In this document: positions 39,101 through 63,176 of the stretch, piece after piece
How positions within the stretch are numbered: the stretch's first letter is position 1
How the letters are laid out: every line of letters begins with the position of its first letter
Assembly (NCBI RefSeq): GCF_005771675.1
Contig: NZ_VAJM01000015.1
Span: 62,001-126,000, forward strand
DNA length: 64,000 nucleotides
Direction of reading: 5' to 3'
Origin: Hymenobacter jeollabukensis
GTDB taxonomy: Bacteria > Bacteroidota > Bacteroidia > Cytophagales > Hymenobacteraceae
Made by a program: the position numbers and the translations under genes
The notes under the pieces: generated by a model
What the model was told of the DNA's origin: nothing
The model's input: only the letters and a program-made list of their open reading frames with translations
Databases searched by the model: none

Positions 39101-39266
39101 TCAGACCGGGCGCTTCCGTCTGCACTTCCACGTAGGGTGGGGCAAACTCCGGAAACACATCCAGCGGGGTGTTGCGCACCACCTGCAGGCCCGCAACGAG
39201 CATCACGCCGAAGAGCACGACGATGACCAGGCGCAGTCGCAGCGCCGATTCTACCAACCACTTCAT
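36171..39266 (-). CDS. RND efflux inner-membrane transporter, CusA/CzcA type
   Basis: A 1031-residue proton-driven pump of the heavy-metal or hydrophobe RND class, with the expected 12-helix plan and two large periplasmic loops. N-terminus: [18 protein letters not shown] then [21 protein letters not shown]. In TM4 it reads [19 protein letters not shown], the charged proton-relay motif of a CzcA-like subgroup. It is the last gene of an operon with PepSY-like, TolC-like and adaptor genes (order of transcription PepSY, TolC, adaptor, pump). The ion or compound exported is not certain; copper, silver or zinc/cobalt/cadmium are plausible for the family. Confidence 0.94.
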
Positions 39267-57591: not shown

Positions 57592-58542
57592 TTACCGCAG
57601 GCCGCAAATCTTCAAAAACAGCCCACCGGGGTTCTTAGTCGCCTTCACCTTGTCAGTCTTCAACTGGTAGGTGAACTTGAACAGCTGGTCCAAGTGCTTG
57701 GGGTCGCCGAGGATGGTGGCCACCAGTTGGGGCTGGGTAATGCCCAACGTATCGAGGTGCTGCCGGGCCGCGAAGGCCCGGGCATCCTCGGCTGGCTGCT
57801 CAAAGGGGATGGGCAGCTGCTGCGGGTGCTGGCGGGCGATGGTGAAGCGCACCGCGTCGTAGGCCCTCCCCTTCTTCACCAGTTCGTAGTCAATCTTGAG
57901 GTCGGTGTGCTCGCTGACCTGGCGCACGGCAATGTCGAGCACCCGGGCCTTGAGCTGGCTGATGTTCTGAAACAGCTCCGGCTCCTTGCCCTTGGGGTCC
58001 TTCAGGTGCAGCATCTGCTTGAACTCGTCCAGCGGATAGGTGCGCGTGCTGGCTTTATCCTTCCACTGGCTCACAAGCTGGTAGATGCGCTTGGCGTACT
58101 TGCTGCTCAGCTTAAGGGCCGAGTGCAGCTGGTAGGAGGTAAAATTTTCCTTGAGGTTGAACAGGAAGGGCCGGATGGGCGCCGCCAGCTGAATCTGCAG
58201 GCAGCCCTTGCCCTTGATGTACTCCACCCGCTGAAACATCCACAGCTGCTGGTAGGTACGCTCGTTTTCCACCTCGAACATGCGCGAGCCCATGTCGGCC
58301 GTCGCCTCGCGCAGCTGCTGGTAGTTCCACTGCCGGCCGGTCAGGGCCTCCACGTCCTTCACGTAGATGGTGTACTCCTGGTCCGGCGTGTCATCCCGGC
58401 GCAGCCGGGAGAGCAGGTAAAAGAAGATATCCAGCTGACAGGCAGTGTAGTCGTAGCGGGCCTGGGTGATGGCGTTGTGCTGACGAACGACAGGAACCGG
58501 AGCCGGCTCGACAACTACAACGGCAGTATCTTCAGGCTTCAT
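57592..58542 (-). CDS. rep: Rep_3-family plasmid replication initiator
   Basis: A 316-residue protein of the Rep_3 (RepB/RepE-type) initiator family, which has tandem winged helices. Supporting stretches: AITQARYDYTACQLDIFFYLL at the N-terminus (about 23-43, broken here as AITQARYDY/TACQLDIFFYLL), WNYQQLREATADMGSRMFEV, and LKLSSKYAKRIYQLVSQWKD in the second domain. Length is normal for the family. It should bind the iterons just upstream, initiate replication and repress itself. Confidence 0.92.
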   Translation of the reverse strand: MKPEDTAVVVVEPAPVPVVRQHNAITQARYDYTACQLDIFFYLLSRLRRDDTPDQEYTIYVKDVEALTGRQWNYQQLREATADMGSRMFEVENERTYQQLWMFQRVEYIKGKGCLQIQLAAPIRPFLFNLKENFTSYQLHSALKLSSKYAKRIYQLVSQWKDKASTRTYPLDEFKQMLHLKDPKGKEPELFQNISQLKARVLDIAVRQVSEHTDLKIDYELVKKGRAYDAVRFTIARQHPQQLPIPFEQPAEDARAFAARQHLDTLGITQPQLVATILGDPKHLDQLFKFTYQLKTDKVKATKNPGGLFLKICGLR

Positions 58543-58629: not shown

Positions 58630-59325
58630 CTTATAAAACGTGGTGGATAGACTTATAAAACGTGAGAGTTCGCTTATAAAAGGTGGTAATAAAAGGTATA
58701 AAAAGTGGTTTTTCGCTTATAAAAAGTGGTTTTATACCATTATATACTATTGAATATCAGGAACTTATGAGCCTTACAAATAGACAAGGACTAACAAATA
58801 AACTCACAAAGGTTGTTGATGCCGAATCCGAATAGCTTTTTAGGGCGGCGGTTCAAAATCCGGACCAGACAAACAAGAAAACAACAAAAAAAGCAGAAAA
58901 CCCTGATGAATACAGGGATTGCACTTTTCTAAGCAATCCCATAACATTAGCCACTTAAAACCACTTTTTATAAGCAGCTGCAGGAACTCCTGAAACTTGG
59001 GCTACCCACCCCTTTCCACCACTTTTTATAAGTCACCACCGCTTTTTTCGGCAGAAGCACAGGATTAACTAACTTTATACTAACTTATGGTTAATAACGA
59101 ATTACCACTTTTTATAAGTGTCTTTCCTCCCATACTGCCCGAACTAGCACGTTTTATAAGCGAAACCCAGCCTTGACAACAACAGTACACTCACGCTTTT
59201 GCCTGGTTAAAACGCCGTTTTGGCTTTGAAATCGGTCATAATTGGACTTTCTACCCCGTAATGACTCCTTGCCGCCATACATGCCCCAGTGGGAAGCGGT
59301 GAGAGCGAAGCTTATAAAATGTGAG
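58630..59325. other. oriV: Iteron-type plasmid replication origin
   Basis: Ten copies of CTTATAAAAnGTGGT. Copies in + orientation: 58630-58644, 58652-58666, 58673-58687, 58696-58709 (partial) and 58716-58730, next to rep. In the opposite orientation: 58960-58974, 59018-59032, 59104-59118 and 59148-59160. One more in + orientation: 59311-59325. An AT-rich, A-tract-bearing stretch (58735-58960) between the two groups is the likely melting region. A small hairpin GGGATTGC/GCAATCCC is at 58915-58940. No gene is visible in 58543-59451. Confidence 0.88.
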
Positions 59326-59451: not shown

Positions 59452-59925
59452 CTACTTGGCCGGCGGCAGCTTGCCAGTTTTGCGCAGGTGTGCATCGTAG
59501 TGCCGGTGGGCAGCCTCCAGGTAATTTTTGATGGTGGTAGGCGTGTCCGGACCGGGCGTGGCCAGCAGCAGGCTCATCTTAATCTCCTGCACCACGGATT
59601 TGGCGATTTGAACCGTGTGCAACGGTACTTCGCCCTCCGGAGCGGGCGCAGCTGCCGCGGCGGACTTACGGCCCCGCGTAGAAGCGCGAACGGGTGCAGC
59701 CGCTGGGGCTGCTGACGTTGAAGCCGCGGCTACCGGCACGGGTTCGGGGGCAGGCACCGCCGGAGCAGCAACTGCGGCGGGTGGTGCTATGGGTTCAACT
59801 GGCGCCGGCGGCGTGGTGGCCGTGCGGGTTGCCTCCCCTCCCATCCCGGCCCGAGCCTGCTGGCGGGCTTCTTCGGGTACTTCAATGCGGCGACGCGGCG
59901 TGATTTGTGGTTTCTCGAAGCCCAT
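59452..59925 (-). CDS. parA-linked protein with Ala/Pro-rich linker
   Basis: A 157-residue protein. Start at 59925 overlaps the parA stop (TAATG). The N-terminus (about 1-28) is basic, and residues about 29-100 are an Ala/Pro/Val-rich disordered linker. The C-terminal 50 residues are folded and conserved in style (VQIAKSVVQEIKMSLLLATP, then PTTIKNYLEAAHRHYDAHLR). In such operons the second gene encodes the centromere-binding partner (ParB-like), but no ParB or classical RHH motif is clear. I treat it as a likely partition partner by position only. Confidence 0.7.
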   Translation of the reverse strand: MGFEKPQITPRRRIEVPEEARQQARAGMGGEATRTATTPPAPVEPIAPPAAVAAPAVPAPEPVPVAAASTSAAPAAAPVRASTRGRKSAAAAAPAPEGEVPLHTVQIAKSVVQEIKMSLLLATPGPDTPTTIKNYLEAAHRHYDAHLRKTGKLPPAK

Positions 59926-60692
59926 TATTTCGCGGAGGTTGAAGTGGTGGATACAGTAGCAGCCGCGGCGGCGCGGCGGTCGGGCAGGCCCAAGCGCTCG
60001 ATGAGCTCCTCGCAGACACGGCGGATTTCCTCGCTCGTGTCCTTGGAGCCGCCGGCGTAGCGCGACCAGGCCGGGTTGAGCAGGCTGTAAAGCGTCGAGG
60101 CCCGGGTGTAAGCCTTGCGGTGGCCCAGGTACGAGTTGAAGCGCGCCAAGCCCAGCCCGTCGATGTAGTCGTCCATCTCCTTCTCCTCCCGTTGCCCCGC
60201 CACGCGCTTGGTGGGCAGGCCGTAGTACTGGAAGTCAATCTGGGCGTCGTCGGCGGCCTTCTTGATGGCCTCCAGAATGGTCATAAACTCGGCCGTGGAG
60301 GCCCGGTCCAGGTAATCCGATACCAGAGGCACAATTACCGCGTCGCAAGCCGTCAGGGCGTTGAACACGTCGTCGCCATCGGCGCGGCCGGGCACGTCGA
60401 TGATAATCAGGTCGTAGTTGTGCTCGGGGTTGTCGATGAAATCGAAAATCCGGCTCAGCTGCCAGGGGTACACGTCGTAGGGATACTGGGCATCGGGGTT
60501 GGTTTCGCGCAGCTTGGCAAAGTTGGCCGCGTCGACCTGCTCGCGGGTCTTGACGATGCTCTGTTGGTAGTCGCAGTCCAGGACGGCGATGCGCAGGCCG
60601 TACTCGGTGGCCAGCGGGGCGGCCAGCACGAGGGCCAGGGTGGATTTACCGGAGCCCCCCTTCTGGGTGGCGAAGCTGATAACCTTGGACAT
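59925..60692 (-). CDS. parA: ParA-family partition ATPase
   Basis: A 255-residue ATPase from the ATG at 60692. The deviant Walker A KGGSGKST (about 11-18) with signature Lys, switch I region VLDCDYQQS (about 40-48), and Walker B-like YDLIIIDVPGRADGDDV (about 92-108) are all present. It has no N-terminal HTH extension, so it is of the short (type Ib-like) form. It pairs with the 59452 gene and an upstream repeat array that may be the centromere. Frames open 18 codons upstream but without family similarity. Confidence 0.93.
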   Translation of the reverse strand: MSKVISFATQKGGSGKSTLALVLAAPLATEYGLRIAVLDCDYQQSIVKTREQVDAANFAKLRETNPDAQYPYDVYPWQLSRIFDFIDNPEHNYDLIIIDVPGRADGDDVFNALTACDAVIVPLVSDYLDRASTAEFMTILEAIKKAADDAQIDFQYYGLPTKRVAGQREEKEMDDYIDGLGLARFNSYLGHRKAYTRASTLYSLLNPAWSRYAGGSKDTSEEIRRVCEELIERLGLPDRRAAAAATVSTTSTSAK

Positions 60693-60754: not shown

Positions 60755-60762
60755 CAAAAGTA
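60755..60762 (-). promoter_or_regulatory. parA promoter -7 element
   Basis: Minus strand TACTTTTG (60762-60755) fits TAnnTTTG. It lies 62 bp before the parA ATG and directly beside the first unit of the octamer array, so anything that binds the array would affect transcription of parA. Confidence 0.55.
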
Positions 60763-61190
60763 ATAGAAAAGCAGAAAGGCAGAAGAGCAGAACACCACTT
60801 TTGCTGAAAAGCAGAAATGTTGTTACTCAGAAAAGTGATTTTGCAATTCTGTTGTTAAGCTGAAATGCAAAACAACAGAAAAACAGAAAAGCAAATCAGT
60901 TAAAATTTACTTTAGCAGAAATGCACTTCTGCAGAAGTGAGGGTTTGCAGAACTACAGTTCCGCAGCCAGCACAGAAAAAGCATTTTGTCTAAAATAACA
61001 GAAATACAAGACAACAGAATTGCATAAAAACAGATGAAACGTGTCTTTGCTCCCTCAGCGTACGGAAGTACACTAGCTGCAGAAATGTAGAACAACAGAA
61101 AAGCAGAAGAGCATCTGTGAGCCAGTTGGTCTTGCTTCTTGATTTAGGTCAGGTTATAACAGAAATGCAGAACTGCAGAACTGCAGGAAC
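60763..61190. repeat. Octamer-phased degenerate repeat array (candidate parS)
   Basis: The word CAGAA occurs 19 times within 410 bp. Ten copies (start positions 60772, 60780, 60788, 60812, 60828, 60876, 60884, 60916, 60932, 60948) are all separated by multiples of 8 bp. Six more (61080, 61096, 61104, 61160, 61168, 61176) share a second 8-bp phase. The consensus unit is GCAGAAAT. Intervening octamers are diverged or near-inverted (GCACTTCT, GCAATTCT). The array begins next to the parA -7 element. Confidence 0.8.
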
Positions 61191-61561
61191 AAGGCCAATA
61201 AAATGAAAACCTATGCTGCTGGTCTCAGGAAGGGCTTACCGGGCAAAAGCGCACGGCTAACCACCAGTTGCTGGGCACCGGCCTGGGCCTCTACAAGAAC
61301 CGGTAGCATGAATGGGATTCAATAGCTGGCTCCACACCACGGGGAAATAAGGACGGACATAAACACGAAGCAGGAAAGGTGCGTACTAGCTTTTCACTAA
61401 CTTTTAACTAATCGTAGAATAGTCTTAGCAAGAAGAACACTACAATCTTAGAGCTAACGCTTTATTCTTGAGTGATTTAGCAATCAGCAAAGCTGATTTT
61501 GTGGCCAGGCAATGTCCAAGTAACTGATTTAAAGCGCTAAAAATGGCCCACTGGGGCACAA
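61191..61561. other. Intergenic region upstream of the mobilization genes (candidate oriT)
   Basis: A 371-bp region, AT-rich from about 61380. It contains the hairpin AATCAGC (61482-61488)/GCTGATT (61492-61498) with a 3-nt loop, followed by T residues. Mobilizable Bacteroidota plasmids usually carry oriT just upstream of the mobilization genes, so the nick site is expected here, but I cannot identify it. No gene was seen. Confidence 0.4.
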
Positions 61562-62092
61562 TTGAAAACCATCACCATGAGCACGGAGCTACGCAGGCGG
61601 GTCACCCTGGACAACATCGTTTACCGGAAAGGCGAAGCGGCCGCGGCCGAAGTGGGCGCCAGTCTCGGGGCCTACGCCAGCGCGGCGGTGGACTACTTTG
61701 CCACCCGTGGCCTAGACCCCCGCGAGACGGAAGCACGCGAAGGGCAACTCATCATGCAGCAGATAAAGAAGCTCGGCGACCGGGTTTTCGGCTTTCTGCA
61801 GGAGCAGGAGCGCACGCTGCTCACGGCCATGCTGGAGGAAATGCTGCGCACCCGCATCACGCTTGACCGGGTGCTGCGCATGAGTGAAATCCTGGTGGGC
61901 AACCTAAACGCCCAGCTGGAAACGCTCAGCGAAGCGCAGCTACAACGACAGCAACAGGCGCTGCAGCTGCTGCGCCAACGCAACGAGGAAGCCGTGGAAA
62001 AGCAGGTGCGGGAAGCGTTGCAAGCGGCCCAACAAAACGGGCCGGGCAAGCGTCGGAGCACACCCGAAAGCCCGGTAGGGCAGGGGCAGTAG
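61562..62092 (+). CDS. BtgA/BfmA-like mobilization protein
   Basis: A 176-residue DNA-binding accessory protein of the relaxosome. An N-terminal RHH-like part (KTITMSTELRRRVTLDNI, then GASLGAYASAAVDYFATRGL) is followed by the family stretch QQIKKLGDRVFGFLQEQERTLL (broken here as QQIKKLGDRV/FGFLQEQERTLL) and a long coiled coil (about 110-165, Gln/Glu/Leu-rich). I keep the TTG at 61562 because it retains the first beta-strand of the RHH fold; an ATG at 61577 is the alternative. The relaxase-like gene follows 49 bp later. Confidence 0.8.
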   Translation: MKTITMSTELRRRVTLDNIVYRKGEAAAAEVGASLGAYASAAVDYFATRGLDPRETEAREGQLIMQQIKKLGDRVFGFLQEQERTLLTAMLEEMLRTRITLDRVLRMSEILVGNLNAQLETLSEAQLQRQQQALQLLRQRNEEAVEKQVREALQAAQQNGPGKRRSTPESPVGQGQ

Positions 62093-62141: not shown

Positions 62142-63176
62142 ATGTACGCCAAGCTAATCAACGCAAAAACGCACGGCAAAGCGGCGTATACCAACACCGG
62201 TAGCTGCGCGCAAACGCTGAATTATCTGCAGCACGAAGCGGTAGGGGAGGGGCAGGAAGCCACGTTTTTTAACGGTGATTCCGACGAGCTCAGCGCCGCG
62301 CAACTGCTGCACAGCATCGACTGCAACGTCAAAGGACTGCGAGCCACAGAAGCCAAATTCTACTCCCTGGTGCTGAGCCCGAGCGAGCAGGAGCTGGCCC
62401 ACATCGGCAGTGACGCCGGCAAGCTCCGGGACTACACCCGCGAGGTGATGCGCCAGTACGCGCAGAACTTCACCCTGCCCGGCGGCCGGCAGATCAGCGG
62501 CCAGGACCTGGTCTGGGGCGCCGTCCTGCACCAGGACCGTACCCACCGGGGCACGGACCCCGAGGTGGTAGCCGGTACGGCCAAAGCCGGTACCAAGCGG
62601 GCAGGCCTGCAGGCCCACGTGCACATCATCGTCAGCGCCCGCGACCGGCAGCAGCAGATAACCCTTAACCCAGGCGGGCGCCGGCAGCGGTTTGACCTGA
62701 TGCGCTGGCAGGCCGCGGCGGGCCGGCAGTTTGAGCGGCAGTTCGGCTACGAGGCGCAGTCCCACGAAAAGCTGCGGCCCAAGCCTATTAGGCCGAGCGA
62801 CCCAGCCCGCGATGCCGGCCGCTTACAGAAGATTGCCGAGCGCGTGGTCGGCATCAACCTGTTGGTGCCCCGGGAGCAGCGCCTGGCTTCGGAGCGGGTG
62901 CAGGACATAGCTGTGGCCCGTGCCTTCGACAAGACCTTTTACCGGATGCTGAGCCGGGTGGAGGAGCGCGCCCGCGACGGCCGCCCCATTGACAACGCCC
63001 TGCAGCTGCTGAGCACCGGGCAGGAACAGGCCCCGGCCCCGCATCGCCAGGCGGCCACAGCCCTGCACGCGGTACAGCACCTGGTGCGCAGCACCCAGGC
63101 CGACCAGTCGGAGCGCACCGAGCACGTGGCCGAGAAGCCCTGCCGCCGCAGCGCGGAGCTCGACATCGAGATGTAA
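62142..63176 (+). CDS. DUF5712-family relaxase-like mobilization protein
   Basis: A 344-residue protein from the ATG at 62142. The N-terminus MYAKLINAKTHGKAAYTNTG is the family signature. HUH-type chemistry is suggested by AHVHIIVSARD (His159, His161) with upstream His130/His135, and Tyr2 or Tyr16 as a candidate nucleophile. The C-terminal third is Arg/Gln-rich and helical. Homologues sit between BtgA-like and coupling-protein genes on Bacteroidota mobilizable plasmids. Nicking activity is inferred from motif and position. Confidence 0.85.
   Translation: MYAKLINAKTHGKAAYTNTGSCAQTLNYLQHEAVGEGQEATFFNGDSDELSAAQLLHSIDCNVKGLRATEAKFYSLVLSPSEQELAHIGSDAGKLRDYTREVMRQYAQNFTLPGGRQISGQDLVWGAVLHQDRTHRGTDPEVVAGTAKAGTKRAGLQAHVHIIVSARDRQQQITLNPGGRRQRFDLMRWQAAAGRQFERQFGYEAQSHEKLRPKPIRPSDPARDAGRLQKIAERVVGINLLVPREQRLASERVQDIAVARAFDKTFYRMLSRVEERARDGRPIDNALQLLSTGQEQAPAPHRQAATALHAVQHLVRSTQADQSERTEHVAEKPCRRSAELDIEM

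Follow-up and report, generated by a model that had tools for sequence, protein, structure and literature searches.

Introduction

The DNA element investigated in this study has its closest described counterparts in the centromeres of type Ib plasmid partition systems, which, as outlined in the accessible sections of the source, are located upstream of the operon and read by RHH proteins (PMC5016525). In the IncI plasmid pESBL of E. coli O104:H4, a type Ib ParAB-parS system contains octamer repeats of the sequence GATAACAA, and the gel shifts in the available part of the report show as many complexes as there are repeats, suggesting that one ParB binds per octamer, be it direct or inverted (PMC7602700). 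In the plasmid TP228, ParG also represses the operon, according to the available excerpts (PMC7308502, PMC5016525). It is the ability of a centromere protein to tell its own site from others on which partition incompatibility hinges. In Agrobacterium, a ParA-like ATPase and an RHH protein, VirC1 and VirC2, act on overdrive, where short repeats are located beside the transfer origin. Here we have analysed an array of octamers beside a parA gene in a 64-kb stretch of DNA from Hymenobacter jeollabukensis, referred to as the window, which sits in a contig of 183,284 bp (C7) of a 6.18 Mb genome in 27 contigs.

Results

The locus and its genes

The array is embedded in a segment that reads as the backbone of a mobilisable plasmid, with its components following each other in the order below.

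57592-58542: Rep3 initiator
58631-59312: beside the Rep3 gene, a set of nine repeats centred on TTATAA and present in either orientation, likely the replication iterons of the plasmid origin
59452-59925, minus strand: gene of a small partner protein of 157 residues, a putative centromere-binding protein
59925-60692, minus strand: ParA, a Walker ATPase of 255 residues (Pfam AAA_31)
60765-61186: octamer array, beside parA
61577-62092: BfmA/BtgA-like gene, beyond the array
62142-63176: MobB-like relaxase gene (Pfam DUF5712)

The identical gene order is annotated on pHsw1, a complete plasmid of Hymenobacter swuensis. The encoded ParA carries a P-loop at its N-terminus and matches the Pfam families AAA_31 and CbiA, with VirC1 (3.3e-4, below cut-off) among its weak matches, while its nearest NCBIfam model is NF041546 (ParA_partition) at 92 bits, which is below the cut-off of 180. 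As a short Walker ATPase without N-terminal HTH domain, it corresponds to the ATPases that characterise type Ib systems.

In the partner protein, an Ala/Pro-rich linker joins a conserved N-terminal motif to the C-terminal domain. R13 is invariant in A1 and would be a candidate for the arginine finger that type Ib partners carry in their flexible N-terminal tail. In the structure prediction, the linker is modelled at low confidence, and the C-terminal domain comprises an extended segment and the helices 15-27 and 38-55, with a pLDDT near 90 over most of it, an arrangement that would be RHH-like. The protein has no Pfam match at 0.001, DUF3408 (PF11888) included, and no NCBIfam match near the cut-off; its matches to PDB sequences and NCBIfam are at chance level only, Foldseek returned no significant match for either the whole protein or the predicted domain, and a search of PHROGs gave nothing useful.

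An octamer array in strict register

The array is organised in four blocks, whose limits were defined by an octamer HMM with the consensus GCAGAANW and which together hold about 39 units across 420 bp, separated by gaps of 25, 41 and 41 bp.

60765-60966, plus strand (on which the word is read): block 1, 25 octamers in one register, consensus GCAGAANW
60992-61035, plus strand: block 2, about 5.5 octamers in another register
61077-61113, plus strand: block 3, about 4.6 octamers
61155-61186, plus strand: block 4, 4 octamers in the register of block 3

The periodicity is reflected in an identity of 0.421 at lag 8 and of 0.413 at lag 16, compared to a shuffle mean of 0.277 (z 6.5 and 6.1), with neither value being reached in any of 5000 dinucleotide shuffles. 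The excess over shuffled sequence, by which the first-pass annotation had proposed to check its phased array, is thus present. All of the nine top lag-8/16 windows of the 64 kb are found within the array (best 0.400), and the next-best, at 39241, scores 0.204. The word CAGAA occurs 19 times, against a mean of 2.1 and a maximum of 9 in the shuffles, and the initial description that 16 of these words fall into two strict 8-bp registers proved to be exact: the leading ten words, at 60772-60948, occupy one register modulo 8 over 176 bp, and the final six, at 61080-61176, occupy over 96 bp a second that is offset by 4 bp. Beyond that description, the words at 60999 and 61015 have a further register in common.

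Block 1 also contains inverted cores of the form NNTTYT at 60797, 60837, 60845 and 60925, all four in the same 8-bp register. In 14 related arrays of the clade, one of which had served to train the model that sets the phase, 44 of 69 such cores are located at the predicted phase and at most 12 at any other. Since slippage copies one orientation, inverted units in register would point to a reader with two-fold symmetry that advances in steps of 8 bp.

Other accounts of the pattern were considered and rejected. The GCAGAA-pair pattern matches 14 places of the genome, of which three are in the array, and none of the five that were inspected among the 11 outside is an array, which speaks against a dispersed genomic repeat. 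The Rep3 iterons do not explain the array either, as the TTATAA-centred repeats form a separate set. A pitch of 12 bp gives a stronger signal than one of 8 bp in some further loci, yet it is confounded because its lag of 24 is divisible by 8 as well.

Conservation of the pitch and turnover of the word

A scan of species genomes returned 35 related parA loci with identities of 65-99%, all of which were used. A search for the array at other parA loci, as proposed in the first-pass annotation, found it in each of them: within 700 bp upstream of parA, an 8-bp array is present in the window and in 35 of 35 loci (z8 7.4-16, with none of 300 shuffles per locus being as high), while among 242 tiles taken from these loci as controls, 2 reach z 4 (maximum 5.5). 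In all 35 loci, a small ORF directly follows parA. The repeat array upstream of the operon, a hallmark of type Ib centromeres, is in this way found as sequence in the window and in its 35 relatives. Across these loci, the 8-bp pitch and the site are kept, and the word varies by clade.

Window clade: GCAGAAnw
L058: AGTAGAAn
L059-L062: AGTAGAAA-like
L063-L066: AAGTAGCG
L067-L072: AGTmGTAA
L074, L076, L163: rTTwAYaa
L075, L162: TTATAAnw

We conclude that the octamer array is real, conserved and functional-looking.

Selection and expansion

The descent of the array by octamer expansion and its selection by a protein that binds every 8 bp had been put forward as alternatives, which our data do not find to be exclusive. 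Expansion is evident in a plasmid of Tunicatimonas pelagia (L167), where tandem perfect copies of CCATTAAC (nine) and CCATGAAA (four) upstream of parA (z8 22.7) are the result of a recent event of this kind, thus illustrating that the duplication of octamers can lengthen an array. Indels of 8 bp account for 38 of 246 in the array versus 14 of 452 outside, in pairs that are not independent and in alignments of repeats that favour 8-bp gaps. Selection is indicated by the inverted units in register, by words that change while the pitch stays the same and by the constraint on part of the octamer. In 41 array pairs of at least 80% identity, which are not independent, the divergence at the positions G, C, A, G, A, A, N and W amounts to 0.19, 0.14, 0.066, 0.108, 0.077, 0.068, 0.134 and 0.141, respectively, versus 0.173 outside the units. 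The lower values at AGAA show that these positions are constrained, which is not clearly the case for the leading G and C.

The word and the predicted strand of the partner

Among the related loci, the word rTTwAY occurs together with the strand QHVRMSKD in L074, L076 and L163, and TTATAA together with KNVRL in L075 and L162. This relationship was quantified in a set of 36 loci of common ancestry (with L049 and L050 excluded) dereplicated to 15; the extraction of partner ORFs excluded L107, L108, L129-L134 and L145-L154. In a partial Mantel test given the ParA distance, the word correlates with the strand (0.35, p 0.002) and similarly with the three positions of it that are presumed to face the DNA (0.37, p 0.001). 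The corresponding value for the helix distance is -0.01 (p 0.50) and that for the N-terminal 45 residues of the partner is weak (0.20, p 0.046). Since the word follows both these N-terminal residues and the ParA distance (r 0.65), common history may contribute to the link. Nine pairs have identical residues at the three DNA-facing positions, and one of these, L062/L063, differs in its word by a distance of 0.202, which is about that of pairs with unlike strands at the same ParA distance (mean 0.191) and which counts against a simple three-residue code. With the exception of this pair, the word appears to largely track what is predicted to be the DNA-reading strand of the partner.

Putative promoter element and putative oriT

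Two short elements flank the array.

60755-60762, minus strand: putative -7 element of the parA promoter, TAnnTTTG (CAAAAGTA on the plus strand), 2 bp from block 1
61427-61435, plus strand: AGCAAGAAG, putative oriT core between the array and the mob genes, the only copy in the window

The proposal that the array starts at the -7 element of parA agrees with the match to TAnnTTTG at 2 bp from block 1, a proximity by which the first units would cover the upstream half of the promoter and thus constitute an operator. In its strict form, the motif is found in 34 of 36 loci of the ParA clade (absent in L062 and L076) at 46-64 bp from the start of parA, as a raw count without chance control. The sequence AGCAAGAAG is equally present in 34 of these 36 loci (absent in L058 and L066), 593-956 bp from parA, and its location next to the BfmA/BtgA and MobB-like genes suggests that it is likely the core of oriT. 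Among 39 more diverged loci, 22 with a z8 of at least 6 do not contain AGCAAGAAG, with other oriT sequences being possible there.

Other partition loci in the same genome and beyond

Three other parA loci were found in the same genome, with arrays of different words and z8 values of 16.7 (C8), 16.7 (C10) and 7.6 (C14). When each of the four arrays of the genome was scored with the models of the others, it could not be read, all values being negative apart from 28.1 for the C8 array under the C14 model and a barely positive 4.6 for the reverse combination.

The survey was extended to 67 further parA loci, a non-random sample of 60 that were hand-picked from the listed matches to span families and 7 of 119 plasmid records. 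In this sample, z8 is at least 6 in 36 loci, three of which (L164-L166) repeat loci of the 35-locus set, 4.8-5.9 in six, 3.4-3.8 in four and below 2.5 in 21; for L166, the upstream window was positioned about 270 bp inside parA. Upstream of parA, the period is 7 rather than 8 in L159 (z 9.8) and in the Aureispira plasmid pAUEa (L170, z 10.1). Immediately upstream of parA, an array is absent from two Bacteroides fragilis plasmids (L169, L172). In one of them, pBFY46 (L169), a period-8 array (586-935, z 8.3) precedes the relaxase gene in the order relaxase-parA-DUF3408, and its counterpart in pBF9343 (L172) has a z of 1.3.

Arrays at conjugative-element-like loci

The partner in L127 is a DUF3408 protein (PF11888, 3.7e-15). 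When 395 genomes of the phylum were searched with its sequence, 19 matches were obtained, distributed over 13 genomes. Of these, 17 regions were taken, the two left out being neighbours of taken ones, and in one, L189, parA was not recognised by motif. A parA gene was recognised in the other 16, and in each of them the 200-bp window with the highest lag-8 signal across 14 kb has its start 175-344 bp ahead of this gene (z8 4.7-13.3, with none of 200 shuffles as high); in the weakest, L184, a period of 6 is nearly as strong (4.5). These parA-DUF3408 loci have the appearance of CTnDOT-type integrative elements, and in the two that were checked for neighbours, parA-DUF3408 are followed by TraG, with a TraG P-loop/DUF3875 protein in both and DUF4141 in one.

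A second set consisted of 60 loci taken down the PF11888 lists, with used and adjacent places skipped; in 26 of these, the motif did not reveal a parA, and one further locus was located at an edge. In 30 of the 33 testable loci (failures L222, L250 and L252), the strongest lag-8 window is found at most 600 bp upstream of parA with a z8 of at least 4, a z that was not reached in any of the 33 segments within or behind parA that served as controls. When 25 of the 26 motif-less loci were inspected again (L255 being excluded), the strongest lag-8 window was followed at a distance of about 350 bp by a ParA motif in five, and the other 20 had no ParA motif and weak lag-8 signals only. In eight loci with DUF3408 and no recognised parA (L228, L231-L234, L236-L238), the top weak lag-8 window (0.07-0.09) is located about 140-350 bp before DUF3408.

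Discussion

The described properties suggest that the array is a landing strip for a protein by which each plasmid recognises itself. We consider it probable that it combines centromere and operator of a type Ib-like ParA module and that it is bound every 8 bp by the protein encoded at 59452-59925; among the roles that the first-pass annotation had listed, centromere, operator or both, the combination is thus the likely one. In the mechanism that we propose, this protein would bind as a dimer, one per octamer, with the strand of its RHH-like C-terminal domain reading the word and the packing of neighbouring dimers setting the 8-bp pitch, which would explain why the pitch is kept while word and strand change together. 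A filled array would offer many N-terminal tails to ParA, which would move the plasmid, and the same binding at the first units, over the promoter and upstream of the putative -7 element, would repress parA and the partner gene. Several observations weigh against the type Ib reading. The RHH fold is without library support and ParA scores below the cut-off of its nearest NCBIfam model, 21 of the 67 further parA loci have a z8 below 2.5, and arrays also precede parA in integrated-looking loci, where the need for a centromere is less obvious.

The main rival is a transfer role as in the VirC system, where ParA and the small protein would form an accessory pair for conjugation or mobilisation that acts on an array beside oriT, instead of or besides sorting; the two roles could coexist. 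The position of the array between parA and the mobilisation genes, the presence of AGCAAGAAG beyond it in 34 of 36 loci, the TraG gene that follows parA-DUF3408 in both conjugative-element-like loci checked and the weak, below cut-off VirC1 match of ParA would all fit such a role. We nevertheless regard it as unlikely, since the best NCBIfam model of ParA is a partition ATPase and since the 22 diverged loci with strong arrays and no AGCAAGAAG indicate that the array follows parA and not that site, unless another oriT sequence is used. A still smaller probability is assigned to the array being solely an extended operator, at which a repressor of parA, and perhaps of mob, would bind cooperatively, with the true centromere located elsewhere on the plasmid. 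In favour of this reading, the -7 motif adjoins the array and its distance from parA is nearly constant, but the number of units would far exceed the requirements of repression, the window has no other lag-8 array of comparable strength and, in the accessible sections on the subject, known type Ib centromere-binding proteins play both roles (PMC5016525). That the array is a neutral microsatellite of functionless slippage products appears very improbable: despite the perfect runs of L167 and the enrichment of 8-bp indels in the array, it would account neither for a pitch that is maintained at a single place next to parA despite changing words, nor for inverted units in register and constrained AGAA positions.

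On a wider scale, we see even chances that plasmids and integrated conjugative elements of Bacteroidota rely on one centromere architecture, in which packing would fix the 8-bp pitch and a few strand residues of the partner protein would set the freely changing word, thus providing each element with a private address that is illegible to the others in the cell and permitting several to coexist per cell; in conjugative elements, where this site heads the transfer operon, segregation may in this way be coupled to transfer. The natural series of arrays, with spacing constant and the word largely changing with the strand, offers a recognition code that is testable by swaps of strands and words, and it may help to predict the coexistence of Hymenobacter plasmids. 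The lag-8 periodicity can find such centromeres where words differ, and the arrays before parA-DUF3408 point to a partition-like site that heads transfer operons in several Bacteroidota families.

Relation to known systems

Among known systems, pSM19035 is similar in that the repeats of delta/omega, direct or inverted, are read by RHH dimers that wrap around unbent DNA and serve as both operator and parS, and different, in the accessible part of the source, in its 7-bp heptads and separate promoters, compared to the 8-bp pitch of the window (PMC5016525). The period of 7 in L159 and L170 is reminiscent of the omega heptads. In TP228 ParFGH, according to the available excerpts, parH consists of degenerate tetramer boxes with AT-rich spacers that are read by the C-terminal RHH domain of ParG (PMC7308502, PMC5016525). 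The RHH fold of ParG is known, whereas that of the window partner is predicted. Unlike the latter, ParG to our knowledge does not contain a long Ala/Pro linker. In case of VirC1/VirC2, the sole sequence relation found here is the weak Pfam match of ParA.

The closest likeness is to pESBL, with a ParA ATPase, a small ParB that follows it and belongs to no recognisable family, and octamers beside the operon, as described in the available part of that report (PMC7602700). The first-pass annotation knew of no described plasmid centromere with such a layout, a statement that does not hold in light of the octameric type Ib parS of pESBL, which was published with gel shifts, and the array is thus, on the accessible text, of a kind already known (PMC7602700). 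The two differ in their words and unrelated hosts, in the about 39 degenerate units that the window holds in four blocks and, as far as the available text describes pESBL, in the location of its octamers both upstream and downstream of parAB, whereas the strong lag-8 windows of our locus are found upstream only. The accessible portion of the report contains no mention of a turnover of the word at constant pitch (PMC7602700), and among the literature matches listed, as titles and openings of abstracts with the subscription literature mostly outside reach, no publication describes an 8-bp array at parA in Bacteroidota. As far as our searches show, what is new is the scale, with tens of units arranged in blocks, the constant pitch with changing words that are largely linked to a protein strand, the presence of four distinct words within a single genome and the extension of this arrangement to conjugative-element-like loci.
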